NCBI GenBank assembly: GCA_007644065.1
Contig: VJWN01000004.1
Coordinates: 2,043,709-2,107,708, forward strand
Reading direction: 5' to 3'
DNA: 64,000 bases
DNA from: Margaritispora aquatica
Lineage: Eukaryota > Ascomycota > Leotiomycetes > Helotiales > Discinellaceae
Made by a program: the position numbers and the translations under genes. Under the pieces are notes generated by a model. That model made no database searches and was not told the DNA's origin. It saw only the letters and a program-made list of their open reading frames with translations. Below are positions 23,480-64,000 of the stretch, piece by piece (position 1 is the first letter of the stretch; each line of letters opens with the position of its first letter).

Positions 23480-24947
23480 TTATGATGCCGCCTTAGTTCG
23501 GCTGTGTTGTTTCGACACTTCTGGTACCTCAAGGACAAAATCCTCCCCACCTGAGTTGCGCACCCAACCACCAAGAATTTTCCGTACTTCGCTCTTTACA
23601 ATACTCCTACTCTCAAGCAGCGAACTTTCCTTCACACATGCATACGTCTTCGCTCTCAGACAGCCTTCAATAGCAGGCACCGAAACCATTGCAGCGATTT
23701 GCAAAGCGAGAGCCCACATCGATCGCTTGCTGCTGGCACTAGCACCTTTCAAAGCGAACTGCTTTCTTCCTTGTAGAGTACCGCCTATCAATGCCTCGCC
23801 AAGTGATTCGGATGCTGTGGAGAAAGAGGAGATATTCGATGAAGTGAGCTTTTCTCCGGAAGGCAAAGTCTGTCTACGGCTGAAAGCAAACTCACGCTCG
23901 GTGGTTAAGACATTGAAAGGCTGGAATTGGTAACCACTTTCCCACTGTTGTGTTTTGTCGGCAAGAGCAGCCAATCGACCTAGAGCAGAGAAGGCTCGCC
24001 TACAAGCTATATCTGAGTACTGGGATGACGGGAGAACGAGACTTTTGATATAGCAGTTTTGTGGAGATATGAGAAGAGAGGTTATGGAAGAAAGGAGAGA
24101 GGTTGATTGCTTAAGGGCGATCTTGTCGGAACAGGATTTCGATAATGTAGGCGGTGCATCAGGACGTGAAGGTTTACGACGTACAAGGCCGAGTGCGGAG
24201 AAATATGATCTTCCGTGTAGATATGGCACTTCCGGATCTTGTGGGATATCTAGTAGATCCCCCGGTGATACGGAGGAAGAGCCGGTAGGTGGCATCTCCC
24301 AAGGTGTTGCGTCATCCTGAGCAGCCATTGTCAGCTCCATACTCGCATCACCACCTTTGAACACTGTTAGATATAAGACCGAGAGCCAGATGAAACTGCT
24401 ATCTGTTGCGGGGTGTCTCACAAGGTGCCTCAGAACAGTACATGTGGAGATGTATTCCTTCATTGAGGGCAAATGGTTGGAAATGAGTGTCGGTGATCTC
24501 ATCTTGAGACCTGAGATGGACAAAATCTGATTCCTTCTTCGGGGATGTTATCAGAGCATGGCACTCATCCAACAAGAATCTGTTAAAGGACCGAATGGCT
24601 AAAACTTCGGCATGCCAGTCGTGTAGCACAACACCTTGAGCCTGGTGGATTTTGTTTTGCGGTAGACATTTCATGCCAGATCTGGAGTATAGATAGTCAG
24701 CGAGAGCAATTGAACGAGATCGATGAAAACGTACGCCACTGACAAGCAAGTGAGTGATTCCTTTCCTGCCACAAATCAGCCATGTGACTTGCAGCCCGCA
24801 AAGTCCATTTCAACCTTGAGCGACAATTCCACTGAGTGGGACCCATTCTTTCACTCCCTCACTCCGATCCCTCGGCTTCCTCTTCTTGGGCCATCTCTCG
24901 AATTCTCGCAGCACTGCATCTGCAATGTCGTCTCCAGAAACCTCCAT
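23480..24947 (-). CDS. tad1: tRNA-specific adenosine deaminase Tad1 (ADAT1 type)
   Basis: Predicted 432 aa, four exons on the minus strand: 24815-24947, 24735-24765 (only 31 nt), 24422-24681 and 23480-24354. Joining them gives the family run GIVAQGKESLTCLSVASGMKCLPQNK. The deaminase motifs are VLHDWHAEVLAIRSFNRFLL (zinc His and catalytic Glu), SEAPCGDAS (formed across an intron) and LSKSCSDKIA (third zinc ligand). The enzyme converts A37 next to the anticodon of tRNA-Ala to inosine. The start is the ATG at 24947, giving MEVSGDDIADAVLREF; an in-frame ATG at 25043 would add 32 residues without family support. The head-to-head neighbour begins at 25290. Confidence 0.9.
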
Positions 24948-27835: not shown

Positions 27836-29768
27836 ATGTCACAATCTGTGGTGCAATGGTGGCTTAGCAACTGGGACACATTTTTATCCTTCCTAGACCA
27901 ATTCCATGGTGGCAGTCCGACTCTCCAAGCTGTAGGAAAATGGGCTGCAATTCTTTCGAGTCACTTTCCTATGATATGGATGGAGATTCACTTGATTCTC
28001 GCTGCTCTCTTTCCAATCGTCATAGGTGCTCATTCTTCTCTCAAGCGACCACCTTCAGCAGGTCCTCCAGAGTCTGAGTTCGAAGATGAGAAGGAGAAAG
28101 ATGAGTTGGACGATGTAGTTGATGAGCCGCTCAATGCTGGTCTGACTCCTAGCGATGCTATTCTATTTCCTCTTATGGCTGGCATGGTCTTGGGTGGGCT
28201 TTACTTTGTTATAGTATATTTGAAGAAAGCGGATTTGGTTAATCTGCTTATGAATGGTTATCTTTCAAGTAAGTGGAATTCTCACGAGTTTAAGGCTGGC
28301 ACCAAGGGCAAAACCTAAGAGTAACTTGGCACTGACCGGTGACAGTATTCGGTGTATTTGGAGTGGGTAAACTCGCTTCTGATGCCCTCGACGTGCTCAT
28401 CACTTTCATCTTTCCCTCGGTCTGGTCATCGAAAGAGGAGGCTTTCTACGTGGAACCCTTACTTCGAGAGCAAGTCTCTGGTTCTACCAACAAGGCAAGA
28501 GTTTTGGCGATTCGCAAGAATGTCCATGGCAAAACAAATCCATTGCCAGGTTTCTTGTCAAATGTCAACTTCCCCAAGTCTGTCACAGATGCCCTTTGGA
28601 CTTTCCGTGCACTCCTTAAAAATCACTGGATCTTCCGAGCTTATGTCCATGGTAAAGTCACTTGGATATTTTGATTTCATCTGGCTAATCCATGATAGGT
28701 ATTTTCAAAGCAAGAACAAATATTCGCCTCACCTCTATCGTGGGATTTTTCATCGGTTTGGCCACAGTCATTGCCTACAATATGGCACTCACTCGCAACT
28801 GGTATCTCACAAATATCCTCGCCATGAACTTCTGCTATGGTGTTCTTCAGATCCTCTCTCCCACCACTTTCTGGACAGGAACTCTCATCTTGTCCGGTCT
28901 CTTCATCTATGATATTGTGATGGTGTTCTACACGCCTATGATGATCACAGTAGCCAAGAGTCTTGAGGCACCAATCATGTTAATGATTCCCGGGCCTGGA
29001 CGAGGTAGTATGCTTGGACTCGGCGATGTCGTTTTACCAGGTATTGTGATGGCTATGGCACTTCGTTTCGATCTCTACCTTCACTATCTACGCAAGCAGA
29101 AGACATTGTCTCTAGAGAAAACCAACCTAACTGCTAAGAACGACACGATAAAGCTACCGTATGTTGAAGCTACTGGTGTTTGGGGAGAGAGGTTCTGGAA
29201 TCGACGGTCTGTGACGGGGACCACAGTGGCAGACGCTGCTCGGTTCGACAAGGTGTATTTCAAGGCGAGTATCGTAGGATACATTGTTGCTATGATTGTT
29301 ACCTTAGGAGTCATGCTTACATTTAAGCATGGACAGCCCGCTCTTCTCTATCTGGTTCCTGGTGTTCTTGGCGCGCTGTGGGGCACAGCAGCTATTCGGG
29401 GAGAGACAAAACTGATGTGGGATTACTGTGAGGACGGAGAATGGGGTTTTGAGGACGAGAAAAAGAAGAAGCCATCCCAGAACTACAAGCCCGATTCTGA
29501 GATAGGAGCGGCTAAGAGTCGTGAGCTGAAAGCCATGAAGGGTTTCACAGCTGGTAATGGTGCAAATGGCCTTCTTGAAAACAAGGACGACTCAAGCAGC
29601 ACCAGTGACAGTTCTGGATCCGAACTTGACGGATCGAAGAATTCTATCAAGCAGAAGACAGGGAATAAAAAGAAAGATAGTGAGCATGCTCATCATGTGT
29701 TTTTGTTCTCACTTAGCACACCACAGCCGAAGAAGAGAAGGAATAGCTTCTCCGTGGTTGTGCTCTGA
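27836..29768 (+). CDS. Signal peptide peptidase (presenilin-type aspartyl protease)
   Basis: Predicted 602 aa, three exons; introns 28269-28345 and 28652-28698. The ATG at 27836 is chosen; the upstream extension uses GTG. Multiple membrane helices carry the catalytic pair: IYDIVMVFYTP (YD motif, about 28906) and LGLGDVVLPGI (GxGD motif, about 29013). Other family landmarks are IFGVFGVGKLASDALDVLI, NFCYGVLQILSP and YLVPGVLG. It cleaves leftover signal peptides and some tail-anchored proteins within the ER membrane. The C-terminus is Ser/Lys-rich (KNSIKQKTGNKKKDSEHAHH) and cytosolic. The last 25 residues after that Lys-rich stretch are not conserved-looking and could reflect a mis-called 3' end. 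Confidence 0.9.
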
Positions 29769-30350: not shown

Positions 30351-31424
30351 TCAAGATCCGTAAGCAGCAGTAGGATACACCCTCTTTTTCTTCTCCCTCA
30401 CAGTCGCACTCCTCGAGCTGCTCCTCGAACTCGCAGCGCTTCCTTCCTTCGATGCAAGCACTGATGGCGCAGTGAGTAGCACCTCGTCTGGAAGGTCGTT
30501 CCACTCGCGTTCTGGGCCGCGTTCTTGGAACGAGCGAGCGTGTGATGGTGGGCCTGGACGAGTCCCCGGCAGACCTGGAGAGGGAGGTCCTAGTATGGGA
30601 GCTCTGGGTTGCAGAGATGTAGATTGGCTTGGAATGGGGGCTTGATGAGAATGTTGTAGGTGATCTGAGGGTGTCAGTTGTCGGCGGAAAATCCAAGCTG
30701 TGTCGGGCTTCAATCGTCTGTAGTATCCGTGTAATACAGGCTCTTCCTTCTTAAAACCTCGCGCTGTGTACCATTGCAATGCCTCCTCGTTTTGGGTCCA
30801 CACATGGGCGTACAAACCCCAAATCTTCATTTCTTGCTGTGTAGTCGCCGCGGCGATCACTTCGTCCAACACGGCTGCCACCAAGCCTTTTCCTCTGTAG
30901 GGCGAGAGAAGCACCAGACTCTGGATATAGATATCATGCACGCCTACTTCGAAAATCGGTGCTTGTGGGGTTGAAGAGGGTGCAAGCGCGGGGTCGAGTC
31001 GACAGACTATCCCTCCAACAACTTTTGCGGTCGGGGGTTTGACGGTAGTATCCATCCATGTAATGACTCGAGAGAAGGATATGGATGCATCGGACGCGAG
31101 GATTCTCTTATAGAATGAGTCTGGGTAGCTGATGGGGAGGAGGAGGGAGTTGATTCTTCGGAGGGGCTCGATGTGGGATTGTTGGAAGTGGCAGATCGAG
31201 GCTTGTGGTGGGAGATGGGACGGTATTGACTTGGATGACGCTGATACAGGAATCGGAGTTGTATTTGGTCTTGGACTCAGTTGTGGGAGAGGTGATGTTG
31301 TTGATGTCTCTGGCTTGGTGGGAGCGGGAGCACCTGGTGGAGCTGCGTAATGTGGTTTCCGGGGCTGAAAGAATGGGTGCATGGGAGGTTGAGTTCGTAC
31401 TTTTGGGGCGTTGCTGTTTTCCAT
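30351..31424 (-). CDS. GNAT N-acetyltransferase, NAA50-like
   Basis: Single exon, 357 aa from the ATG at 31424 (MENSNAPKV); the longer open frame would start with TTG. Residues 1-80 are Pro/Ser/Thr-rich. The GNAT core follows: RRINSLLLPISYPDSFYKRIL, VGGIVCRLDP, and DIYIQSLVLLSPYRGKGLVAAVLDEV with the acetyl-CoA loop RGKG. Then come LYAHVWTQNEEALQWYTARGFKKEEPVLHGYYRRL. The start LPISYPDSFY and the end HGYYRRL resemble the N-alpha-acetyltransferase Naa50 (San). The long Pro/Ser/Arg-rich tail (about 110 residues) is probably disordered. Protein N-terminal acetylation is likely; the exact substrate is inferred. Confidence 0.83.
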   Translation of the reverse strand: MENSNAPKVRTQPPMHPFFQPRKPHYAAPPGAPAPTKPETSTTSPLPQLSPRPNTTPIPVSASSKSIPSHLPPQASICHFQQSHIEPLRRINSLLLPISYPDSFYKRILASDASISFSRVITWMDTTVKPPTAKVVGGIVCRLDPALAPSSTPQAPIFEVGVHDIYIQSLVLLSPYRGKGLVAAVLDEVIAAATTQQEMKIWGLYAHVWTQNEEALQWYTARGFKKEEPVLHGYYRRLKPDTAWIFRRQLTPSDHLQHSHQAPIPSQSTSLQPRAPILGPPSPGLPGTRPGPPSHARSFQERGPEREWNDLPDEVLLTAPSVLASKEGSAASSRSSSRSATVREKKKRVYPTAAYGS

Positions 31425-32053
31425 GTTGACTCCTTGGAAAGTGAATAATCCTCGGATTTGAACCAAAGCACACGAAGGTGTAGATCGAGTGTATGTTCCC
31501 AAGGATTGTTCTGTTGATTCTATTCCTCAGTGCAATCAATCCTCACCAAATTGTTTGAGGGATGAAATCTGTACACCGCCCACCGAATAGGGGCAAGCCT
31601 TCAGATTAGCGTGGCAAAACGATCTCTCCCGCAGGAAATCACTGCCCAATCAGATCACCAGGAGCTTATTATTGTGTCTTGGAGTTTGATCATGACAGGG
31701 GCTGAGGGGCCATTGTCGGGGGTTATAGCACAAGACCAAAGACCAACTAACAGTGAGTGAGCTCCGTTTCAGCACTGTCGCTGCAACAATGGTAATTGGA
31801 AAGTGAATTCATCTCAACCTCAACTCCATCTTTCAACCACAATAAGAGTATGAGGACAATGCAGCTTCGCCTATGAGAGGACACCAGACCAACGAGATAG
31901 TTAAAATGCTCGCACAACATCTCTCTGCCTCCCATATTTTTGCATCAAATCGTATCAGCAATCAAGAAGTCTGCATAGCGGACATTCCTTTTCCCAAGGC
32001 CATCTATCGTACACAGAACTCCACCTAGCCTGGTGTCCGGCCCAGAGTTCGAG
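31425..32053. promoter_or_regulatory. Divergent promoter region, GNAT / Sgf11-like
   Basis: A 629-bp gap between divergent starts. No gene recognised. Confidence 0.4.
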
Positions 32054-47992: not shown

Positions 47993-50900
47993 ATGCGGCT
48001 TTTGGAACTCACCCTCAATGGCGAGTTCAAGTTGACTAGAGACCTACTCGGTGATAGGATCCCCTCGTACGCCATACTGTCACATACGTGGGGTCCAGAT
48101 ACAGAAGAGGTCACATTGAAGGACATGGTGGACGATACCGCAAAAGGTAAGGTCGGCTATAATAAGATCAAGTTCTGTGCAGAAATAGCAGGACGTGACG
48201 GCCTACGATACTTTTGGGTAGACACGTGCTGTATAGATAAATCGAACAACAACGAACTCTCAGAAGCGATAAATTCAATGTTTCGCTGGTACCGCGACGC
48301 AACTCGATGCTATGTATACCTGTCAGATGTTTCCACTACCAGCTCTCCGCAGAATAACGACCAAACTGAGCTCTCGTGGGCACCCCTTTTTAGAGCGAGC
48401 AGATGGTTTACCCGAGGCTGGACGCTACAAGAACTTATTGCCCCAGCATCGGTCGAGTTCTTCACGCGGGAGGGCGTGCGGCTTGGTGACAAGATATCGC
48501 TAGGCCAGCAAATTCATAACATAACGGGAATACCTGTCTCAGTGCTTCAAGGAGCGCCCCTTTCTCAGTTCGAGGTTGATAAGCGAATAGCATGGGCAAC
48601 GACACGCCAAACTACCCGCGAGGAAGACTGGGCCTACTGTCTCCTCGGAATTTGTGGTGTCTTTATGCCGCTCATCTACGGCGAAGGGAGGGAACATGCA
48701 ATCGGTCGGCTTAAAAGGGAGATTAACAATACTCCGAATGGTCAAGGTATGTCTGACTCGTCGGCCATCCACGACTGGCTGGAGGCCCCCGACGCCTCTA
48801 TTGAGTATAGAAACGCTTGCAAAAAGAGACATCTAGCCACTGGGCTCTGGCTTGTCGAACGACCGTCCTTTTCTTCTTGGCTCCAAAATTCCAACTCTCT
48901 CTTGTGGCTCAACGGCTTCGCAGGTTGCGGCAAGTCTGTGATATGCTCCACCGCCATCCAGTATGTCTCTCGCCATCAGAAGTCTAGCCCACGCGTCGGG
49001 GTCGCCTTCTTTTTCTTTGTCTTCGACGATCAGTCCAAGCAAGACACCTCCGCTATGCTCCGCGCCCTCATTCTGCAACTTTCAAGTCAGCTAGAAGACA
49101 ACCACACTGTTCTCTCGCGGTTACACAACAGTTATCGCAACACTACGCTGCCCAATAACGCGCTCGCCGACTGTCTTCATCAACTCATACGGAAGTTTGA
49201 CCACACATATATCCTCTTAGACGCACTAGACGAAAGCCCTCAGGACAAGCACCGGGAGGACGTGCTCCAAGCTCTGGTGGAATTACGTGCATGGTCGGAG
49301 CCTGGGCTTCATCTCCTAGTCACCAGTCGCAACGAACCAAATATCCGTGATGTGCTTCACCATGAGCTTGGGGCCTTGGAAAACGAGATAATATCGATGA
49401 AGAACAAATCCGTCGATGGCGACATTGCAGCGTTTACCGCCCAGCACCTCAGAGACAATCGGAAACTTCGAAAATGGGCGGCCTATTATGACCAAATCGA
49501 GGTTAAATTTTCTGAGCGTGCAAAGGGCGTGTAGGTTCTTGATTTTCGTCATTGTGTAGACTCACTAACCGTCTTCTAACAGGTTTCGATGGGTAGAATG
49601 CCAATTTAAAGCACTGGAGCAATGTCCACAATCCAAGCATCTTCTGGATCAACTGCTGGATTCGCTACCTGAATCACTGGACCAAACTTACGAGCGTATG
49701 CTTTTGAACATTGCCCCAACTTTCGTGGAATATTCTAAGAGTATGTTAAGGTTGCTCTGCTGCGCCAAACGACCATTGACAGTGCCGGAACTTGTCGACG
49801 GTGTTGCCGTAGAGCTAGGCAACTCACCAAAGTTCAACCCAAGTCGAAGACTAGAAACCGTAGATGCGATTCATGAAGTGTGTCCCGGATTTATCGAAAC
49901 CGACGAGCAAGCCTCTGGGGTGGCCACGGTACGCATCGCGCATTTTTCAGTCCAGGAGTATTTAGAATCAGAACGAATAATTCATCGTGCGGCCGCGAAA
50001 TTCAGCGTACGAAAAAGAGAGGCTCATATAGACATAGCCTGTATATGCCTAACATATTTACTGGAGCCTGCACTATTAACGTCGATTAACCGTGAAAAAG
50101 AGTATCCACTGGCATTTTACGCTGCAAAAACCTGGCATGAACATCTTTGTGAAGGGGACGAAAGAGTACATCCCGTTCAACACCAAACATTCCGGCTATT
50201 TCAAAATACCGCCAGGTTTGAGAATTGGGTTGCTATTTGGAATGTTGACAACTACTACGGCCAGAAACCTGCTGGAAAAGTTCCATCGCCCGTTTACTAT
50301 GCTTCACTTCTAGGACTTGATCTAGTTCTCTCCGGGCTACTTGGTGGAAACACTGCAAGTGTTCCTCTCTTGGGTCTAAGTGTTGCGGAAGTTTCTCGTT
50401 TGGTTAATACTGAAGGAGGAGAATACGGGACTGCGCTACAGGCAGCATCAGCGCGAGGCTATGAAAGGGGAGTCCGACTGCTATTGGAAAAAAATGCCGA
50501 TATCAATGCCTGTGGCGGATATTACGGGAATGCGTTACAGGCAGCATCGGCAGAAGGTCACGAGAAAACAGTCCATTTGCTTTTAGCGAGAAACGCAAAC
50601 GTAAACGCTCATGGTGGAGAATACGGGAATGCGCTATATGCGGCATCGGCACGAGGCCACGAGTCTATAGTCCGACTATTGCTAAGGATGAATGTCGATG
50701 TTAACGCGCAAGGTGGAGAATACAGGAATGCTCTATACGCGGCATCAGCAGGAGGCTACGAGGCTATAGTCCAACAATTGCTAGAAAGGAACGCCGATAT
50801 TAACGCCCTGAGTGGGGGATACGGAAATGCGCTATACGCGGCATCGGCGCGAGGCCATGAGTCTGTAGTACGACTACTACTAGGGAGGAATGCTGACGTT

Positions 50901-53361
50901 AATGTCCAAGGTGGAGAGTACGGGAGTGCACTACACGCGGCATCCGCCCGAGGCTACGAGGTTATAGTCCGACTACTCCTAGAGAGGAATGCTAATATCA
51001 ACGTCCAAGGTGGATATTATGGGGATGTGCTACAGGCAGCATTGGCGGGAGGCCATGCGAATGTATACCATATTCTTCTAGAGAAAAGAGCCACCGTCAA
51101 TACTATAGGTAGTACAGACGGGAGGGAGGGCGAGCCTCCGAGGACACAGCTACAATCCGCTCGTATTAGCGAAAGCCCAGATAAGATACAAGTTTCTTTT
51201 CGACAAAAAGCAAAGAAAAAAAGTGGGAGAGGAACTGGCGCAGTTGGTCTGACTAATCTGGGAAATACAGGTTATATGTCTTCACCCCTACAATGCCTGA
51301 GAAGCGTAAAGGAACTTACCAAGTACTTCCTTACGGGTGAATATGCCGATGATATTAACACGCAGAATCCCCTTGGATACAGCGGTGAGATAGCTATGGC
51401 TTACTGTAACCTTCTCAACGAGATTTACCACACTTCAAATGACTCTGTGCAGCCCTCCGACTTCAGGAGTACTATGGGTACTTACTGTCTATCATTTTCC
51501 GGGCAGGGCCAGCAGGACTCGCAAGAATTCGTGGGTTTCTTATTAGATGCTCTCCTTGAAGATTTGTGTCGGGTTAAGAGGAAACCTTATATTGAGAGGC
51601 CTAACTCAACTGACGATATGGTGCACGACAAGGCGGCCATTGCCAAGATGGCAGATGAGACTTGGGATATCGAAATGAAACGTAAAGACTCTGTTATTAT
51701 GGATCTATTTACTGGCCAATACAAAGTCACACTAACGTGTCCAATCTGTGACAAGATTGATATCAACTTTGACTCCTTCAACAATCTCACTATTAGACTG
51801 CCAGATAATTGGGCCCATACAGTCAATTTTGTTTCGTTAAACTACAGTCCGGTCAAGATCGAGGTTGAAATGTTAGAGGATAGTACCATTGGCGATCTGA
51901 AGCAATTTATCTCTAGCCGAACCAGTGTGCCTGTTGAAAGACTCATCGTCGCCGAGCAGTTTAAGGGCAAATTCTACCAAATATACCAGGACATAGCCGA
52001 TGTCTTGGAGATTCGAAACAATGACAATATTACCATCCACGAACTGGAGGTGACGCCCTCTCATCCTGTTTTCCAAGCAAAGCACCAACTGGATTCTCCG
52101 TTAACTTCAGGGTTAAAACCCAGCAAGAGCAAGCAGCATCTGATTAAAAACATTTGCCATGACTACATAGTCATTCCCGTCCTTCACCGTCGAGGTAATA
52201 AGCAGATTCGGACTTTCAATGATAACGGGCTTCCTCCGCACTTCATTGTACTGAATCGTGAAGAGGTATGGACCCTGATAAAGGCGAAACGTACTAGAGT
52301 CGATTACTAACGATACTGTAGGCTAGAAGCGAGGATACTATTCGGCGAAAGATCTTGGAAAGGATTGCCACGTTCACAACGAGGAGTGCATTTCAGGACG
52401 GTGATGAGGACACTGCTGAGATAAATATTGCTTTATATGCAGATTCTGGAGTCGATTCCAGACTACAGAATACGTTTGACCTGGGCTATTTCTCTGATGT
52501 CAACCCGAGTGACCTGGGAATTTCAACGGGCTGGAAAATTAAACCCCACGAGACTTTCCCTCACCTCTCAGACAGGGGTGATTGGCAGAATGGAGGTGGC
52601 TCCGATGAAAATGCCGGTCCGATCGTCCGTCTCGGTGAAGGTATTGTGGTGGATTGGACAAACAGTGCCTGGGACATGTTGTTCGGTATGGACTCACCAG
52701 GCGATCCCAACCGAGGAGCCAAGACGTACTTGAACCCTTTCAAGCTTCACGATCCTGTCCTGGAGCAGCAGCGCATCTCTCGCCAAATCACGGATATCTC
52801 GCTTGATGATTGTCTAGACGAGTTCGAACGGTCCAAGACTCTTCGTGAAATGGACGCCTGGTACTGTCCTCGCTGTAAGAAACACGTACGTGCCAGCTGT
52901 AAGTTCGAAGTCTGGAAGACGCCTGATATCCTGATTTTCCATCTTAAACGCGCGAGTAGTAAGGCCCGAGAAAAGATCGATAGCATGGTTACTTTTCCTG
53001 TGGAAGGGCTTGATCTGGAACAGCATGTCCTGAAGAAAGAGGTCGGCAAAACTGAAGTGTACGATCTGATCAGTGTCGTTGAGCATTTTGGCGGCTATAC
53101 CGGTGGACATTACACGGCCAGCGCCAAGAACTTTATTGATGGAACTTGGTACCACTATGACGGTAAGATTTGGACCAACTTGCGCCAGCAAATAGCTCGT
53201 GTTCTAACATTATCTTCCTTATTATAGACAGTATTGTTGAGGTGATTAAAGATCCGAACGACGTTGTAAAAGGGGCAGCTTATATTTTATTTTATCGTCG
53301 CCGCTCAGAACGACCTCTTGGTGGCCCTCGATATAGTCACACTTCCAAAGCCTACCCCTAA
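47993..53361 (+). CDS. HET-NACHT-ankyrin NLR-type protein fused to a catalytically dead USP domain
   Basis: Predicted 1731 aa, four exons; introns 49531-49582, 52266-52321 (TACTAAC branch) and 53163-53227, all in phase. HET domain about 20-190: YAILSHTWG at 26-34, RYFWVDTCCIDKSNNNELSEAI, RGWTLQELIAP near 141-151. NACHT: Walker A GFAGCGKS at 308-315, Walker B YILLDALDES at 406-415. A winged-helix-like stretch (AKRPLTVPELVDGVAV) follows. Seven ankyrin repeats span 791-1021. Residues about 1060-1720 are a Ubp12/USP15-type ubiquitin protease: Cys box GLTNLGNTGYMSSPLQCL (1068-1085), FSGQGQQDSQEFVGFLLDALLEDL, CPICDK and YCPRCKKH zinc pairs, TGGHYTA with His1670, and WYHYDDS with the Asp. The catalytic Cys is Gly1076 (codon GGT at 51270-51272). 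Fungal NLRs with HET domains trigger allorecognition cell death; the USP part probably senses rather than cleaves. Confidence 0.92.
50415..51107 (+). repeat. Seven near-identical 99-bp ankyrin repeats
   Basis: Seven consecutive 33-codon units, each starting with a Gly-Gly-x-Tyr-type loop and running through NALYAASARGHESIVRLLL-like helices to NADVN. Units begin at 50415, 50514, 50613, 50712, 50811, 50910 and 51009. The third to sixth differ at only a handful of residues, far closer than ordinary ankyrin repeats. This points to recent unequal exchange or concerted evolution, as in the WD repeats of the HNWD genes of Podospora. Confidence 0.9.
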
Positions 53362-54299
53362 TGAGACCTGGACACGGAAATAGATGACGATTTAGGTTTC
53401 GATACTATTAACGCAAGATGGATCGACCCGTCGATCTTAACAAACTTTAGATAGTGTTTTAGGGTTTGGATAAGGTTTATTTTTATTTATATAAGCTATT
53501 CTATTAAGTGTTTTAATCTAACTCTAAAGGGCTTTAAATAATACTAAGAAATAACTCTATTAATACAAAATTCTAGGGTAAGCTAGATGTGAAAGTCTAG
53601 GGTAAACTAGGTATAAGAATCCTGGAAAGTCTATTTTTAACTTTTATTCTATATTTAGTTTTATATATTAACGTATAAAATAGAGATTAAGGTTAATTAA
53701 GCTTAATTAAGTTTAAAAATAAAGTTTTAGTATTTTTTTATTTTAATTAAGTTATTTATTTATTTTTAAAAAGTTTTATTAAACTTTTTAAAAGAATTAA
53801 AATACTTTATTAATATTTTTAAACTAAGTTATATTAAGTATAAAATATAATTTATACTTTTAATATTTAAAATACTTTATAAATAATAAAATATTTTAAT
53901 TTAAGTATTTATACTTATTCTAAGTATAAAAAATAGGTTAGACTTAGAAACTACTAGGCTTATCTAAGTAAAGTTAAGGTTTTATAAATTTATTTAAATA
54001 TAAAATAAACTATATCTTTAAGTTCTTTTTTAAAAAAACTTAAAATATATTTATTATATATTTATTTATTAATTATAAAACTTAATATACTTATAGTATA
54101 AAGTAGAATTTTATTTATAATAGAACTTATATTATTCTTTAATTTTAGAATTTTTATTATATAATATAATAGTTCCTTAGTATTATCGAACTCTTTTAGT
54201 CTATTAACGATATTTATAATAAAAATAATATCTATATTACTAGTTTATTAATTAACCTTAAAATAATATATTCTCTATTATTACTTAACTTTTAACTTT

Positions 54300-54725
54300 T
54301 ATACTTTCCGATAATAGGTTTTCTATTACTTATTTAACTTTTTTTCGTTAATAATAGTTACTCTATTACTATTTAACTTTTAACCTAGTTCTTTATTATT
54401 TACTTAACTTTTTTTCGTTAATAATAGTTACTTTATTACTACTTAACTTTTAACGTTTATACTTTCTAATAATAGATTCTCTATTACTTACTTAACTTTT
54501 TTTCGTTAATAATAGTTACTCTGTCACTACTTGACTTTTAACCTGGTTCTCTATTACCTACTTGACTTTTTTTCGTCGATAATAGTTACTTTATCACTAC
54601 CTAACTTTTAACGTTTATACTCTCCGATAATAGATTCTCTATTACCTACTTGACTTTTTTTCGTCGATAATAGTTACTTTATCACTACCTAACTTTTAAC
54701 GTTTATACTCTCCGATAATAACTAC
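54300..54725. repeat. Subtelomeric tandem repeats around a CTTTTTTTCGTTAATAATAG core
   Basis: Five copies of the core (variant CTTTTTTTCGTCGATAATAG) are spaced about 65-90 bases apart. They alternate with TTATTACTACTTAACTTTTAAC and TTTATACTTTCCGATAATAG-like pieces. The array is inside the AT-rich region. Confidence 0.75.
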
Positions 54726-57189
54726 TCTATTATTATTCTTTTAGCTTTCGAAAATTAAAATTTATAACCTTTATCGTAACTATACTACGACTTAGTTTTA
54801 TAACTCTTTAACTTTTTTATATTAAAATGTCCCGATCCGTCGTTATTATTATTACTGTTGTTATAGAGACGCCTTACGCTTAGCCTTTTTGTTTTCCGAG
54901 ATCTATAACCTCTTTTTATAAACAATCGAAATTTACTACCTTAAAATACTTTAACTTTATATATATTACGTTTACTTAATAACCGTATTTATAATAGAAG
55001 GTAAGCCATCTTTAAAAGCTCTCCGAGTAAAGGTTAGTATTAGATATCCGGTTATTATATTAGTTCTTACTATCTATAGTTCCTAGCTACTAGTAAAGAA
55101 GTTCTTTTATAAGAAAATATACTCGTATTATATAATATTACGTATAAAGGTAAGGAGGATCTTCTAGATTATAATACTTACTAATAAGATTAGTAACCTT
55201 TTTTGGATATACTATAAAGCCTTATAAAAAGAACTTAAAGTCTACTAGTAAGTATTTTAATCTATTCAAAAAGACGTTTTTAATTAAAAGTAAGTACTAT
55301 CTAATTTATTATATTCTTCTTAAAGATAAACTACTTTCCTTCTCTTAAGCTAGTAACTGATACAAGTCCGAAGTTACTATTTATAGATTCTTTAGTAAAA
55401 TATTAAGCTTCTTAGCCTATTAATAAAGCTTTGGTCTAGAATAAGATACTACGAAAGGTTATAATAATTAAACCTTTTTAATATTTAAATATAATAAATA
55501 TATTAGAATAGAAATAGATTTTATAATATATAAAAAAAATATTATACTAAAAGTTATATTTATTTTAGAATTAATTAATTATAATCTTTATACTATTGTT
55601 CTCTTAAGCTTTATATAATATACTTATCTATATATATATCTATAAACTAGTTATTCTCTAGTTACTTTATAATTATAAATAACTAGAGTAAAGTAATATA
55701 AGTATTCGTACTAGCCTAATATTTATTAAGCTAACGGCTGTCTCTACTTTAGTTATTTAGTAATTATTATTAGTCTAGTTTATATATACTAGTATAAACT
55801 CTTTTATAATTTACTATAGCTTATATAACGTAGTTAGCTAGATAATAACTATTTAAATATATTAATATACTAAAACTTTTATACTATAAACTATAAACCT
55901 CTTTCTAGTAAACCTAACTATAAATATATTATATTATCTGTTATTAAAGAACCTAAAAAAAAATCTTATTATTATATAAAAGTTTAAAAAGTATAGTAGA
56001 TCAAAAGAGAATATCTATAAAAATATTAAAAAAGTAAAGATAAGAGATACTAAAGCTCTAATCGTAAATAAAAAGAAATAGAATATAGATATGTAACGGA
56101 AATTAAGAGCTTATAAGGCTCGATAGTATATAACTATTCTTCTTCTTTATAATTTATATTAATTTATCTAGGACCTCTTTTCCTTCTACTTTTATTAATC
56201 TTTTCGAGTTAAGCCTTAAAGCTAAAAAAAAAGTATATAACGTTATCTTTATTATTAATAGCTAATCTTTAAGTAAGTTATCGTAGAATATAAATATACT
56301 AAAACTTATTTTTATTAAAGAGTATTTACTTAGATCTTTTTTAACTTTAAACGATTTATAAGATACTATACTTAAAGATATAAAGGGTAGTTATAAAGTA
56401 TATACTATCGTTAACGAGAAGGACGGCCTATAGTTAAAGAAGATATACTTATAGAGAGATATTATTAAGATACTCTTAAAGAAGATTAGAAAGCTAGTTA
56501 AGAGTATATCTAATATCTTATTTATCTTTAATATACCTCTTATATTTACTAATCTCTAATTAAGCTTGCCGTCTTACTTTAGTAGAATAATCCTTATACT
56601 AGAGCTTACCTTAAAGTATACTGTTAATATTAGTTTTATAAACTAAATAATTGTTTTTTATATTAATTCTAGATATACTAGACTTACTATACTCGTTAAG
56701 GATTACGAAAAGATTTAGTTATTTACTTCTCTTACTGAATATAATATTACTACTATTATAATAAATAAGTCTATAACTATTATATCTATAGTCAAATAGC
56801 TAATAAACTTAATAGTAATTTATTAGATATCGGTATACGTTATATTTCTCTTACCTAGTATTATTTATACTATATTTACTATTAAAACTAGAATTCTATA
56901 CGGTAGTACTTTTTGTACTTAGTAAAATTTCTAAGGAGCTACGATAGGTATAGTAGTTAACTTACTCGAGCCTAATATAGAAAAAGGAAAATTAATTATT
57001 AAGTTATAGTTAGCTACTTTATAGGATATCGTAAAGTATAAGGATAAGAAGATAAATTATAAAGCTTTAGTATTACTTTCTATAGAGATATTAGTTAAAA
57101 GTTACTATAACGAAGTCTTTAAGGAATAGGAGGACATTATAAAGAGCTTAATTAAGAAGTTATTTCCTAAAACTACGTTTAAAGTATTA

Positions 57190-57630
57190 GAATCTCGTCG
57201 AAAGAAGAGAGGTAAGAAAGGTAAAGAGTAGAATAAGGACGAGGATAAGGAAGGTAAGAAGTAGAATAAGGATAAGGATAAGGAAGGTAAGGAGTAAGAT
57301 AAGGACGAGGATAAGGAAGGTATAGAGTAGGATAAGGACGAGGATAAGAAAGGTATAGAGTAGGATAAGGATAAGTACGAGGATAAGGATAAGTACGAAG
57401 ATAATAGAGGTAAGGAGCAAGATAGGGATAACGAGGATAAGGGAGACGAGGAGCAAGATAAGGGAGATAAGGATAAAAAAGACGAGGAGTAAGATAAAGG
57501 AGATAAGGATAAGGGAGACGAGGAACAAAATAAAAGAGACGAGAATAAGAGAGACGAGGAGTAAGATAAGAGAGATAAGGATAAGGGAGACGAGGAGTAA
57601 GATAAGAGAGATAAGGATAGTAAGGACGTA
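57190..57630. repeat. Purine-rich simple-sequence tract
   Basis: A run of GATAAGGACGAGGATAAGG-type words on the plus strand, more than 400 bp of nearly pure purines. It may be a decayed coding repeat for Asp/Glu/Lys-rich protein. The minus-strand open frame it creates (Leu/Ile-rich) is an artefact of composition. Confidence 0.8.
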
Positions 57631-60600
57631 AAGTTGTAAGTCGAGTATAGAGTATTATTTATATTTATATATAATACTAATAAAGTATATTTAAATTAAA
57701 AATATATTTTAAAAATAGTTACTTTATAGAATATATTAATTACTAAATAAAATCTTTTTTAATTATTTTAGTATTTTAATATACTAAAACTTATTCTTAT
57801 AGTTCTAAATATCTAAGTATTTTTACTTTAAATAACGATAGAGATATAAAGTAAAGTATAAAGTCCTTTTTTTAAATATCTTTCCGTCTTTAAATAAATC
57901 CCTTTTTTTATATTACTAACTACTAAGTTCGTTTTTTTATTGTTTTTACTATTAAGATTAAAGTTTTATTTTTATCTAGAAAAGGTAGTATTTAATAAAA
58001 AGTAAAGAAATTAAGAAAAAAATTAGTTTTCTATTATTTATAAATTAAAAAATATAATTAAAAAGTAGTATTTAACTTTTTAAATATCTTTTAATATTAC
58101 TTATTTTTAAAATATTTATAGTTATATCTAAGGAAAGATAGCTAAAACTAGTTAAATATCTTGTCTATAGTTATTACCCTCGTTTAGTTCCTAGACGTAA
58201 GATATAAATCTCTAAAGTAAGTAGATAGATCTAAGGAGTAAAAAGTTATAATATCTATCTTAATCTTATTTTTAATTTTTAACTAGTCTAAAAAGGATTC
58301 TTTAGTAAGTAAGAAAAGAATCTTTTATTAATATTTTTTAAAGTATAAGTAGTTAAGTAACTATAAAACCTTTAAGAGCTAAGCTAGGTGCTCTATCGTT
58401 CTCGGAAGAATAACTAGAATATCATTAAGTTGCTATATAGTATCCTATACTTTACGAGCTCTTTAATTATATCTTAAGATATCTTTAGATTTAATAATAA
58501 AGTAAGAATAAATATCTTCTATTAGCTATAGACGGCCTTAATTAATAATAAGTATAAACTAATAGTAGTCTATCTAAGTTAAGGTTAACTTAAAGCTTAA
58601 CCTATACTAAATTCTTCTATTATCTTCGTTTTTTTATCGTTAATACTAGAGTATAAACTAGATTATTAATAAGCTTTAAGAGAAGAAGTATCGAAGGTAC
58701 TAGAGAAAAGTATAAAGTAAATAACTCTAACTTTTCTAAATCCTTTCCTTTAGTAAAGTTAAAGTAATTATCTTAAATAAGATATAGATCTTTTAAATAT
58801 TACTTAGTATATATATATAAAACTATAAACTTTTAATTACCTACGTAAAGGTTAGAGTCTAAGACTATTATAGTAGTACTACCTTTTATAGTTACTTACT
58901 TACTATCTCTCGATACTTATTAAGTAAGATAATTAGTACTATACTTATTACTCGATACTTAGAACGTAACGATATTAATCTATTATAAGTATCTTAATAG
59001 GTTAGCCGGACTCGCTTCTTAACCTTATAATAGTTTCTGACTAACGCTTCTCGCGACTTCTTCTCTGTCTACTTCGCTACTAAGGTAGCTAACTACTAAG
59101 TAGCGGGATCGAGGTATAGCTTTAAGAGGTTTTTATTCTAAAATAAATAAATCGTTCTAGTATCTAAAATCTTTTTTTTAACTATATAATATTACTAGTA
59201 CTTTAAGCCTTTTTAAAAAACCTACGACTTCTTTTTTAGTATATATATTATATTATATACCTCGGATAGAAACTTAACGTTATAAAATTATATAAAACTT
59301 GAAATATCTTCTTTATATATCGCTTAAAGAAAGCGCTCTAAATAGTATTACTTCTATAAGTATATCTAAGCCTTACCTTAGTTAGTATTTCTAGTCCCTA
59401 GAAAGCTAAGATAAATCTTAGTAACGATATTAATATAAAGCTCGTCGTATTATAAAAACCCTTAATCGAATATTCGGTCTAACTTAGTATAAAACTTAGT
59501 AAGAACTATAAAAAAAGAATCTTATCTTTAAAATTATAACTTATACTCTTTACTTATAAAGTAAAGAAAAGCTTTAAAAAACTCTATAAGATTTATTTAA
59601 GTAATAAGGCTTTATATTATTCTTTAAATAACCTTAAGATATTCTAATTAAATTAAATAACTTTAGTATAATTTAGTATATAGATTTTAAATACTGGTTC
59701 GTATTTCGTTTATATAAGTAGAAGTATTTAGTTAACTTATTAACTAACTTAATAAAATATACTAAGCTATTACTTTAAGAATATATTTAAAAATACTCTT
59801 TAATATTATATAATTTATAAAGTAGCTTATTTATTTATTAATTAAGCTTTTAAAAGTATATCTCTAAATATATAAACGAAGGAAAAAGATATAGATTAAA
59901 TAGTTATAGATACTTATAGTTCTACTAATATATAAGTATAGAATATATTAAAGTTAAATAGTTATTTATACCTCGTAGCTATTAGTAACTATATATCTAA
60001 TTATCTACTTAATATAAAGATTACTTACGATTCCTTATAAGTATTATAAAGTTAGATAATAATAAAATTCTATTAAAAATACTTTTAAAGAAGTAAGAAA
60101 TCTAATTATACTATTAATATTATAACTCGCTTAAAGAAAAGTAATAAAAAACTCTTTTATATATAGATAAATATTTTTTAAAAAAGACGAAGTATCTAAT
60201 ATTCTTATAAAAAGTTTAGTTATAATAGAAGTCTTAAAAAGTAAAGTCTTAGAATTTACTCTTTAATTCTTATAAAGGTAGTTACTATTAAGCCTAATCG
60301 TAAGACTATTTAGAAATACGTTATTTTTAATATATATAATATTAAGAAAGTAGTAATTATTCTTTGTTTAAGTATAATAAGTTACCTTTTAAAAAGCGTA
60401 CTAAGCCTTAGTATATTCTAATATACTAGTTTAGATTTAATATAAAAGGAAATCTATTAACTTATAGTATTCTTTAGGTTATTTTAGTAAGTTATATTAA
60501 CGTTTTAGATTTAAGATATAATAGCTTAGATTATTATCTTTTTTTTAAAGATAATCTAAGATAGTATAATCTAAGTCTTATATTTATAGTTTAACTAATA

Positions 60601-60812
60601 GCTCTTTAGGTTTTTATTAAAGAGAAATATATTAACCTAACTTTTTTTTATAATATTATTCTTATACTAGCTTATTTTCTACTTTTCTTTACTTTACGTT
60701 TATATCCTTTAAATTTATTCTTTAACTTTTTTTTTCTAAAAGACTTTTAGGACTATCCTTTAAACTTATATAACTTTTTAAACTAGAGGGAAGTAAGAGT
60801 ATAAAAGTAAAT

Positions 60813-61100
60813 CTAGTACTAGATTCTAATATCTAGCCTAATCTACTTGTTGTGTCCGGTAATAGTAGGAGTATAGACGTATACCTAGTACTAGATTCTA
60901 ATACCTAGCCTAACCTACTTATCGTGTCCGGTAGTAGTAGGAGTATAGACGTACACCTAGTACTAGATTCTAATATCTAGCTTAACTTACTTATCGTATC
61001 TAGTAGTAGTAGGAGTATAGACGTATACCTAGTACTAGATTCTAATACCTAGCCTAACCTACTTATCGTGTCTAGTAGTAGTAGGAGTATAAAAATAAAT
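60813..61100. repeat. Four tandem copies of a 72-bp unit
   Basis: Units begin at 60813, 60885, 60957 and 61029 with CTAGTACTAGATTCTAATA and each contains CTTATCGTGTC-like and TAGTAGTAGGAGTATAGACG words. The exact 72-bp spacing holds across all copies. 72 is divisible by three, so it may be a relic coding minisatellite. Confidence 0.88.
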
Positions 61101-62778
61101 CTATCGTTAATTATTATATAAAAGCTTAGAATTTTCTTATATCTTTTATTTTATACTAATAATAGAAAGGATATAGTATTAAGCGAAGAGGACGATTAAT
61201 ATATATTCGATACTAAAGTACTAGATAGAGAAGGAGTCGCGGAAAGAGCTCTAGAAGGCGTAGACAAAGAGTTTCGTAGAGAACTCTATAATAAATTAGT
61301 ATTAAAAGTCTTACTTTAAGTATAAATATACTTTAATAAAGAAATCTATTAAACCTTTTATCTTTTTTTTTATTTAGGTTTAAGATATAGACTAGCTTAA
61401 TAAAGATAGTGGACCTCTATAACGTCTTTTAGGTTTTAAAGAGACTTTTAGTATTTTAGACTCTATAAGCGATTAATAAGTAAAGGTGTTACTTTTAGAA
61501 AGGGTAAATATAGAACTAAGGATATAAAAAAAAGTAACGAGATAATATTCTAGTATATTAATATACTAAAACCTTAAACTCTATCCTTTTAATAACCGCT
61601 AAAAGCTAGACCTTTACCTTTAGGTAAGAATAGCTATATCCTTAGAATTATAATAGTATAAATATTATAAATAGCTTTTAGATATTATTCTAAATATAAA
61701 AAATATATTATCTAAAGAACTAGTAATATAAATTAAGTTCTAAAACCTTTAAAAAAAAGACGTCTCGTCCGGCTTCTACGTTCTACTTTAGATAAAGTTA
61801 AGGGTTACTAGTAATAATAAATTAGGCTAGTATGCCTCTTATAGTGTTTAAAAAAAAGAGAGTCTAGTAGCGGTATTTTTAAAAATATATAGAAGTAAGT
61901 ATTCTATAGTTATATAAATATTTACTACTTAAAGGAAAGCGTTAAAGAGAATCTTAACTATTTATTATATTTTCTAAATATTAATTTTATAAATTCTAAA
62001 AGTTATTAGGAGTATAAAAGCTTATATTCTAAGAGATAACTTACTAACTAGTTATACTTTTTAAAAGTAATACTACGATACTCTTACCGAACCGCTATAT
62101 AAGAAGGTAGACTCTTTAGTATATTTATAACTTATTATTTAAGTACTTTAGTTTTATTCTTAGCTCTTTAGCTAAGTATTTTATAATATAACTCTAAATA
62201 TTACGACTTTAGGATTTTAGGAAGCCTTGTTCCTCGAGGAACTCTCGAAGCTCTTCCCTCTCTAGTCTAGTTACTTTATCTTATAAATTAGTAAAGGCTT
62301 AGTATAGCTTAAATTTATAAATAGTTTTAATAATCTCTTAAGTAATATTCTACTTTACTTTTCTCGCTTTATACTTAGTATATATTAAAAAAAAGATTTA
62401 TATTTTAGGTAGTAAGCTTTTTTATAAGGCTTTCTTTACTACTAGGACTATCCCTAATGTCTTAATATATTTACTCTTAATAATCTTATTAAAAAGCTTA
62501 AGGATATACTCCTAGTAAGTCCTACTAAAAGTATTTTCGAAAAAGAATTCTTTTAAAAAAGTAATTTAAAATAATATAATCTAAGACGAAACGACAGAAT
62601 TATTTCTTTTCTCTTTAATCTAGAGTAGCTATAGTTCCTACTAGAAAGTATTAGCTACGTTTATATCTCGCCCTTAGCTTTACTATTAAGGATCTATATT
62701 TTTCGTAATACTTATACTTAACTAATAGGATATTTTCCTCCGTTTTAAAGGCTATAATATAGAGGAGTCTAATAGCGA

Positions 62779-62902
62779 GAGGAGATTCGTAGAGAGGAGA
62801 TTCGGCGAGAAGAGATTCGTAAAGAGGACATTCGTAGAGAGGAGATTCGGCGAGGGGAGATTCGTAGAAAGGACATTCGTAGAAGGGAGATTCGGCGAGC
62901 GT
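62779..62902. repeat. Short tandem repeats of GAGATTCG(T/G)-type unit
   Basis: About eight copies of a unit near 15 bp, alternating GGAGATTCGTAGAGA and GGAGATTCGGCGAGA, with GGACATTCG variants. They lie in a relatively GC-rich patch about 1 kb from the telomere. Confidence 0.8.
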
Positions 62903-63850
62903 AGATTTAGAGCCGGTAAAGGTAAAGGAAAAGGAACAAAGGTACTCGGGAGTGCTCGAATTAGCGTCGGTAAGAAGTATATAGGTAGTAGTAGTATCGG
63001 AAAAGGCTCTCGAGAAGCGAAATCCTATAGAGATTATAAAGATAATTCTAAGGATATCTATAGAGTATCTATTAAGGATTAAAACGTTTTTTAAATATAG
63101 AAGATCTTTTTTAGTTAAGTAGTTATAGGTTTAAGTATTAAGTAGTAGATAATCTACTATAAAAGCTATCTCCGTTAGTACCGTTACTAGGTAGAGAAAG
63201 GATAGAGGTACTATAGCTTAGTACTCCCCTAAAAGGGTATTACTTTATAGTATCGTAACGGTAGACTATATATTAAAGTCGTTACGACAAATGTCCTTAG
63301 AAGTAGAAAGGTAGAGTATTAATGTTTTTCGTGTCGTAAGACGCTAGACAATTACTAGCGCCGTCGGGTATAAGACGTGTTGTTAGGGAAGTAGCGTACT
63401 ATTTAGAAAAGTATATTAGTAAGGAAAAATATAGTTATACTACTTATTTTAAGCTATATTATCTTTTTATACTAAGGATTAAACCTTTAGCTAACCTTTA
63501 TTCGGTATTAGAGTATATTATTTAGGGTTAAGACCTATTCCGACATTATATCTCTTAGCTAGTCCTTAGGCCAAGTAGATAGTATATTATAGGAGGATAT
63601 TATTAAAGTTACTTATTATTATTATTTTATAATTTTATTATTTTAGTATTTATTTATATACTAGATATATTTCTAGTCTTAGTTTTTCTTTTTCTAATTC
63701 TTCTTACTTACCGGGAGCTTTCCTACCTTTTCTACCGCTTTAGGAATTAGAGCCTTAAGAATCGTAGTCTTAGGAATCGGAGTCTCTATTACCTTTCTAA
63801 CCTACTTCTACTTCTTTACTAGTGATACTAAGTAGTCCGGTACTAAGGCG

Positions 63851-64000
63851 TTAGGGTTAGGGTTAGGGTTAGGGTTAGGGTTAGGGTTAGGGTTAGGGTT
63901 AGGGTTAGGGTTAGGGTTAGGGTTAGGGTTAGGGTTAGGGTTAGGGTTAGGGTTAGGGTTAGGGTTAGGGTTGGGTTAGGGTTAGGGTTAGGGTTAGGGT
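63851..64000 (+). repeat. Telomere, (TTAGGG)n
   Basis: Tandem TTAGGG from 63851 to the window end, about 25 copies. The G-rich strand runs outward on the plus strand, so this is the right-hand chromosome end. One unit near 63971 lacks the A (TTGGG). Confidence 0.98.

Follow-up and report, generated by a model that had tools for sequence, protein, structure and literature searches.

What is a deubiquitinase domain doing at the end of a fungal NLR when its catalytic nucleophile is gone? The question is raised by a gene of Margaritispora aquatica in a 64,000-nucleotide stretch of contig VJWN01000004.1 (hereafter the window, whose coordinates are used throughout). The C-terminus of this HET-NACHT-ankyrin receptor is a Ubp12-type catalytic region without DUSP, in which Gly replaces the nucleophile Cys and the other active-site and zinc residues are kept. 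The explanation we rank first, giving it about an even chance, is that of a fungal NLR with an integrated, inactivated USP domain (a pseudo-deubiquitinase) acting as bait or sensing surface.

Gene architecture and subtelomeric position

The last gene before the telomere-side flank occupies 47993-53361 on the plus strand, and our splice model joins four exons into an open frame of 1731 aa. The first-pass annotation had placed the feature at 51240-53361, which is right for the USP part, while the whole gene starts at 47993; the 1731-codon frame it had described as intact is recovered in the four-exon model. All three introns (52, 56 and 65 nt) have GT-AG borders and a CTAAC close to the 3' end. 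Exon 2 is a single open stretch leading from the end of NACHT through the ankyrin repeats into the USP domain, with neither stop nor intron. The features of the receptor part and of the chromosome end are the following:

47993-49530, 49583-52265, 52322-53162, 53228-53361, plus strand: the four exons (splice model, open frame)
48068-48433, plus strand: HET domain, aa 26-147 (Pfam PF06985, E 1.6e-13, spliced protein)
48839-49366, plus strand: NPHP3_N/NACHT domain, aa 283-458 (Pfam PF24883, PF05729)
48914-48940, plus strand: Walker A, GFAGCGKSV, intact (motif position)
49211-49237, plus strand: Walker B, ILLDALDES, intact (motif position)
49531-49582, plus strand: intron 1, 52 nt, inside the NLR part (GT-AG, CTAAC)
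50472-51170, plus strand: ankyrin repeats with a unit of 33 aa; aa 810-1042 contain seven regular copies (Pfam Ank_2, E 1.1e-27; repeat listing)
51099-51245, plus strand: linker from the last regular ankyrin repeat to the USP, its terminal KKSGRGTG aligning with Ubp12 (alignment)
63850-64000, plus strand: telomeric TTAGGG repeats and contig end, context outside the gene (repeat scan)

Within the NPHP3_N/NACHT region of the spliced protein, Pfam assigns aa 283-446 to NPHP3_N (E 1.5e-37) and aa 303-458 to NACHT (E 3.2e-7), and it finds HET, NACHT, ankyrin and USP in one frame, as had been read from the letters alone. A HET effector domain, a NACHT domain with Walker A and B, and C-terminal ankyrin repeats together give the protein the domain make-up of a fungal NLR (STAND, NACHT type). 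In AlphaFold, run on the window exons with the fungus's own Ubp12 as second row, pLDDT was mostly 70-87 for the ankyrin repeats and nearly all below 50 for the USP parts. The HET domain is considered TIR-like, and it must be functional for the HET-NACHT-WD40 incompatibility reaction (PMC12881547).

Between the gene and the TTAGGG repeats at 63850-64000 lie four frames of at least 150 aa, every one over tandem repeats, in agreement with the earlier placement of the gene as the last before the telomere. The flank, some 10 kb long, is rich in A+T (GC per kb 0.21 to 0.34, starting at 54000) and has RIP-like indices of 1.65 (TpA/ApT) and 0.09 ((CpA+TpG)/(ApC+GpT)). The corresponding values of the gene, introns included, are far from these, at 0.92 and 1.07 for the NLR part and 0.82 and 1.09 for the USP part. 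Tandem-repeat-bearing, strongly RIP-like DNA (53400-63800) thus stands directly behind a gene that is itself spared.

Among the 10 neighbouring frames scanned there was no sign of an NLR cluster around the gene. Elsewhere in the window, a 1161-aa frame at 8335-11817 matches the DegT/DnrJ/EryC1/StrS aminotransferase family over residues 14-296 (E 3e-43), its remaining length being without family match, and further frames carry an adenosine-deaminase domain (23483-24547, just at cut-off), a signal peptide peptidase (28689-29765) and a GNAT acetyltransferase (30354-31526).

The USP domain, its lost nucleophile and its source

The USP part contains the following features, in the order in which they lie along the gene:

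51243-53295, plus strand: USP (UCH) domain of Ubp12/USP4/USP15 type, aa 1067-1710, exons 2-4 (Pfam PF00443, profile 1-254/254, E 2.6e-58)
51270-51272, plus strand: GGT, Gly1076 replacing the nucleophile Cys (spliced model, alignments)
51510-51530, plus strand: QQDSQEF block, kept (motif position)
51738-51752, plus strand: first zinc Cys pair, CPICD (motif position)
52266-52321, plus strand: intron 2, 56 nt, phase 0, position and phase equal to an intron of own Ubp12 (GT-AG, CTAAC, intron comparison)
52865-52879, plus strand: second zinc Cys pair, CPRCK (motif position)
53102-53119, plus strand: His box GGHYTA, with His1670 at 53108-53110 (motif position)
53163-53227, plus strand: intron 3, 65 nt, phase 1, interrupting the Asp codon of WYHYDDS, position and phase equal to an intron of own Ubp12 (GT-AG, CTAAC, intron comparison)

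A sequence comparison with PDB entries puts USP4 first for the USP part (E 8.4e-90), followed by USP15 and USP11, all three being relatives of fungal Ubp12. Its Cys box reads GLTNLGNTGYMSSPLQCL, and a degenerate DNA pattern of the active box matches it at 51261 with one mismatch. The glycine codon reported at 51270 is indeed GGT, and QQDSQEF, both zinc Cys pairs, GGHYTA and WYHYDD, likewise described as kept, were all located in the spliced protein, the second D of WYHYDD being created only by splicing. Compared with an active deubiquitinase of the Ubp12/USP4/USP15 group, the protein has the subfamily domain, the oxyanion Asn1071, His1670, the pair Asp1687 and Asp1688, the zinc pairs CPIC and CPRC, and WYHYDDS, and it lacks the nucleophile Cys and the DUSP. 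The roles of Asn, His and both Asp are those given in PMC10867860. The description of the USP as nearly full therefore stands for the catalytic domain (254/254 UCH positions) and fails for the DUSP, which Pfam detects in own Ubp12 (E 4.8e-13) and not in the fused protein. An insert resembling UBL scores 19.9 bits (E 6.4e-4) against the ubiquitin family, below the cut-off of 25.4.

Elsewhere in the genome, the box STCYMSTPLQ of locus L045 (G000:C24, USP match 231781-232845) has an intact Cys together with the Ser and Pro found next to Gly1076 in the fused domain. Reading these two residues as signs of decay was dropped for this reason, and because L045 combines them with Cys, the C to G replacement is the one change in the fused box that clearly disables it, which upholds the claim that only the nucleophile was lost. 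RIP changes C to T. It was dropped as the cause of the Cys loss, since the change here is T to G and the indices of the gene differ strongly from those of the flank. We infer that the fused USP no longer cleaves, yet still folds and binds; we stop short of calling it dead as a fact because some deubiquitinases earlier classed as inactive have since been reported active (PMC12037411, PMC10919355).

Where the domain came from can be asked within the same genome. Used as query, the USP part of exon 2 finds itself in the window and, at 51% identity, a single further gene. That gene, L021 on the reverse strand, combines DUSP and USP domains with the box GLSNLGNTCYMNSALQC, and to judge by this architecture it is the fungus's own Ubp12 (Ubp12-like). 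Fused gene and Ubp12 share two intron sites, one between Glu and Ala-Arg (phase 0) and one in the Asp codon of WYxYxD (phase 1). Since both USP introns match in place and phase, the copy was taken from genomic DNA and not from a processed transcript; on this evidence the donor is genomic DNA of a Ubp12-type gene, possibly the Ubp12 of its own lineage and possibly that of another fungus. The alignment to the same-genome Ubp12 that the first-pass annotation had proposed as a check thus bears out the Ubp12-type ancestry through shared intron positions and phases.

In two conserved blocks, 117/186 and 99/166 positions of the fused domain are identical to own Ubp12. Identity with human USP4 is 87/180 and 73/162 for the fused domain and 104/180 and 83/164 for own Ubp12. 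The fused copy, being less like USP4 than own Ubp12 is, has therefore evolved faster, as would be expected under relaxed constraint and equally under adaptation.

Bait, ubiquitin reader or passenger

NLRs generally work in the order ligand, NACHT oligomerisation, HET output. According to the explanation we rank first, the USP domain would add a sensing surface to such a receptor, most likely by serving as bait: a foreign or non-self factor directed at Ubp12 or at ubiquitin would take it, and its pocket might be occupied by ubiquitin. Alteration of the USP surface would make NACHT oligomerise and HET start cell death, and a domain without catalysis would leave the ubiquitin pool of the cell intact. 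As expected of an integrated decoy, an otherwise complete NLR carries an extra domain, and this domain comes from a host-type gene, as the shared introns indicate. The integrated-domain reading is further supported by the unbroken exon-2 frame, the full UCH match, the intact Walker motifs and the conserved sites that were kept, by the nearest HET-type NLR frames scanned, which carry repeats only, and by the parallel of NLRs with a CHK-2-derived domain (PMC12258605).

The dead USP might instead be the sensor itself, a tight and slow binder of ubiquitin or chains that reports changes in ubiquitin with no foreign factor involved, which we consider unlikely. The idea draws on USP4, whose C311A mutant binds ubiquitin at 0.60 nM against 92 nM for the wild type (PMC6172466), and whose catalytic domain, once DUSP-Ubl is removed, lets go of ubiquitin only after nearly an hour, compared with less than 1 minute for the full-length protein (PMC4243247). 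The fused domain likewise has a small residue at the Cys place and no DUSP, and it keeps the switching-loop Phe equivalent to USP4 F386 (position counted on the alignment). The roughly 150-fold tighter binding of C311A and the slow release without DUSP-Ubl lend plausibility to a natural ubiquitin trap; for the gain in affinity, the Ubp8 C146A structure offers relief of a steric clash as the reason (PMC6172466). Taken literally, the gene would be an NLR in which a small residue for Cys and the loss of DUSP reproduce the two laboratory changes that give tight, slow holding, the loaded domain forming the surface that triggers HET and guards the ubiquitin system; by its analogy to USP4 this can be entertained, at low probability.

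Several data speak against such a reader. The USP4 measurements concern Ala and not Gly, and Ser in Ubp8 leaves monoubiquitin affinity at the wild-type level; free ubiquitin is given as 4-50 uM (both PMC6172466), a level at which a nanomolar pocket would already be occupied in the resting state. Loss of DUSP-Ubl shifts the equilibrium affinity merely from 92 to 44 nM, and the slow release is only partly common to USP11 and USP15 (both PMC4243247). Finally, switching-loop residues conserved in USP4, USP15 and Ubp12 differ in the fused domain (R to T, A to C and P to L). Because Gly falls outside the USP4 tests, Ser in Ubp8 behaves like wild type, a nanomolar pocket would always be full, the effect of DUSP-Ubl on affinity is small and the switching loop is altered, we prefer a bait, perhaps ubiquitin-loaded, over a pure ubiquitin reader.

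It could also be that the USP is a passenger, picked up by chance and useless to the receptor, and that it has been decaying since its Cys was recently lost. The fused gene is known from one genome only, its USP domain evolves faster than Ubp12, and it adjoins RIP-like DNA in a subtelomeric position. That such losses occur is seen in L046 (G000:C16:424976-425875, minus strand), where a USP-like frame that has diverged very strongly and scores 46 bits to UCH has Gly for Cys, GIENSNHFGWLNSTVQ; by eye it has no clear QQD or His box, and it is unrelated to an NLR, the nearest NPHP3_N match being 39 kb away. Decay is at odds with the intact splice sites and with the pattern of substitutions. Of the residues common to own Ubp12, USP4 and USP15, 128/163 are retained in the fused domain, against 77/164 of the Ubp12 residues at other sites (Fisher p 3.8e-9), columns gapped in any of the four sequences being dropped and the divergent insert and linkers left out. 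This preferential keeping of conserved sites shows real selection on the USP domain at some time since its split from Ubp12, which may predate the Cys loss. The Cys box enjoys no special protection, because its change rate (3/14 deeply conserved sites) is about that of the rest of block A (21/93).

Neutral substitution was simulated in 1000 runs with two thirds transitions and no indels. At 0.02 substitutions per site, the 682-codon USP part stayed open in 254/1000 runs and the whole CDS in 28/1000; at 0.05 the figures were 44/1000 and 0/1000. The scarcity of open frames excludes long neutral decay, and a recent release from constraint is still compatible with the simulation. We regard chance capture as improbable. 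As to the earlier proposal of selection for binding without cleavage, past constraint on the domain stands; such selection itself does not follow, since the constraint may predate the Cys loss and the open frame rules out only long drift.

Very unlikely, in our opinion, is a scaffold or regulator with no sensing role, in which the dead USP would compete or pair with Ubp12 or shield ubiquitinated partners, or the receptor, from degradation: pseudo-deubiquitinases reportedly act as scaffolds or allosteric partners, and chains can be protected by dead ones (PMC10919355, PMC6172466), but a USP lying behind the ankyrin repeats of an NLR suggests a sensing role. An artefact is hardly probable either, be it a wrong base at 51270 from assembly or base calling or the merging of two separate genes: a single base does decide between Gly and Cys, but exon 2 is uninterrupted from the ankyrin repeats into the USP, with no stop and no intron, and the family's motifs are restored by the splice models on either side.

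Relation to known receptors and deubiquitinases

To our knowledge, integrated domains in fungal NLRs are known only from sequence surveys. A close case is that of Sordariales NLRs with a C-terminal CHK-2-derived kinase (PMC12258605), likewise complete NLRs with a domain copied from a housekeeping gene and proposed as integrated decoys; the present gene has a USP instead of a kinase and has lost its nucleophile, whereas the text on the kinase is silent on lost catalytic residues. Plant NLRs also carry extra host-like domains, among them an Ulp1-type protease domain (Peptidase_C48) in three species, but their kinases are reported intact, and the words 'ubiquitin' and 'UCH' are absent from the main text of that study (PMC4759884). 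The pseudo-deubiquitinase USP39/Sad1 is, like the fused domain, a USP fold without catalytic Cys; USP39 also lacks the His and is tied to splicing (PMC10919355), whereas the fused domain keeps His and Asp and sits in a receptor. With Ubp12, USP4 and USP15 the fused domain shares the catalytic domain, the zinc Cys pairs, the UBL-like insert (weak, below cut-off) and the intron positions of own Ubp12, and it differs from them in having neither DUSP nor nucleophile Cys and in being joined to an NLR.

Regarding fungal surveys, the main text of PMC12258605 has no 'UCH' and has 'ubiquitin' just in a cited title, and its domain table, which lies beyond that main text, may hold a USP case; the text of the 2014 survey (PMC4986451) contains neither word, and that of the 2022 survey of N-terminal domains (PMC9815663) mentions ubiquitin only for the clan of the Crinkler domain. 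No HET-NACHT-USP receptor occurred among the best-ranked literature matches (e.g. the best 25 of 1,491). The earlier statement that no HET-NACHT-ANK-USP receptor has been described agrees with these main texts and matches, the domain tables of the surveys lying outside that scope. Integrated domains in fungal NLRs are thus already known, and the USP domain and its dead state look new within the literature searched. If it is a working bait or ubiquitin holder, it would be a fungal dead-enzyme integrated domain comparable to plant decoys and would mark ubiquitin handling as attacked or sensed in fungal immunity; such a receptor would have a defined pocket whose ligand is directly testable. This integrated domain makes for a sharp biochemical prediction.

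Within the genome, 23 USP matches were grouped into 18 loci, the window's included. Among the other 17, the Cys can be read in 11, L046 has Gly, four are unreadable, and L040, which resembles USP39/Sad1, has Asp at the Cys place. When the 23 USP matches were compared with 52 NPHP3_N matches, none beyond the window's two fell within 20 kb of any of them, the next-nearest distance being 24 kb; this comparison covers NLRs with NPHP3_N, types without it, e.g. NB-ARC, being outside it.

Searched against the genome, the first exon finds 58 matches, which fall on either its HET or its NACHT part. At the HET loci, Pfam finds WD40 repeats in L022, L023 and L027, TPR in L024 and L028, and ankyrin repeats in L025 and L026. 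The latter two, like the hnwd HET-NACHT-WD40 genes of Podospora, have the same order of HET, NACHT and C-terminal repeats as the fused gene, in which a USP comes after them; 10 frames from seven of nine HET loci sampled (all but L029 and L030) contain no catalytic domain among the families listed (the best 25 for three WD40 and similar frames). Two of these loci carry very regular WD40 arrays behind their NACHT frames (L023:3188-4396 with 359 bits and L027:3386-5224 with 587 bits), which resemble the fast-evolving HET-NACHT-WD40 incompatibility genes.
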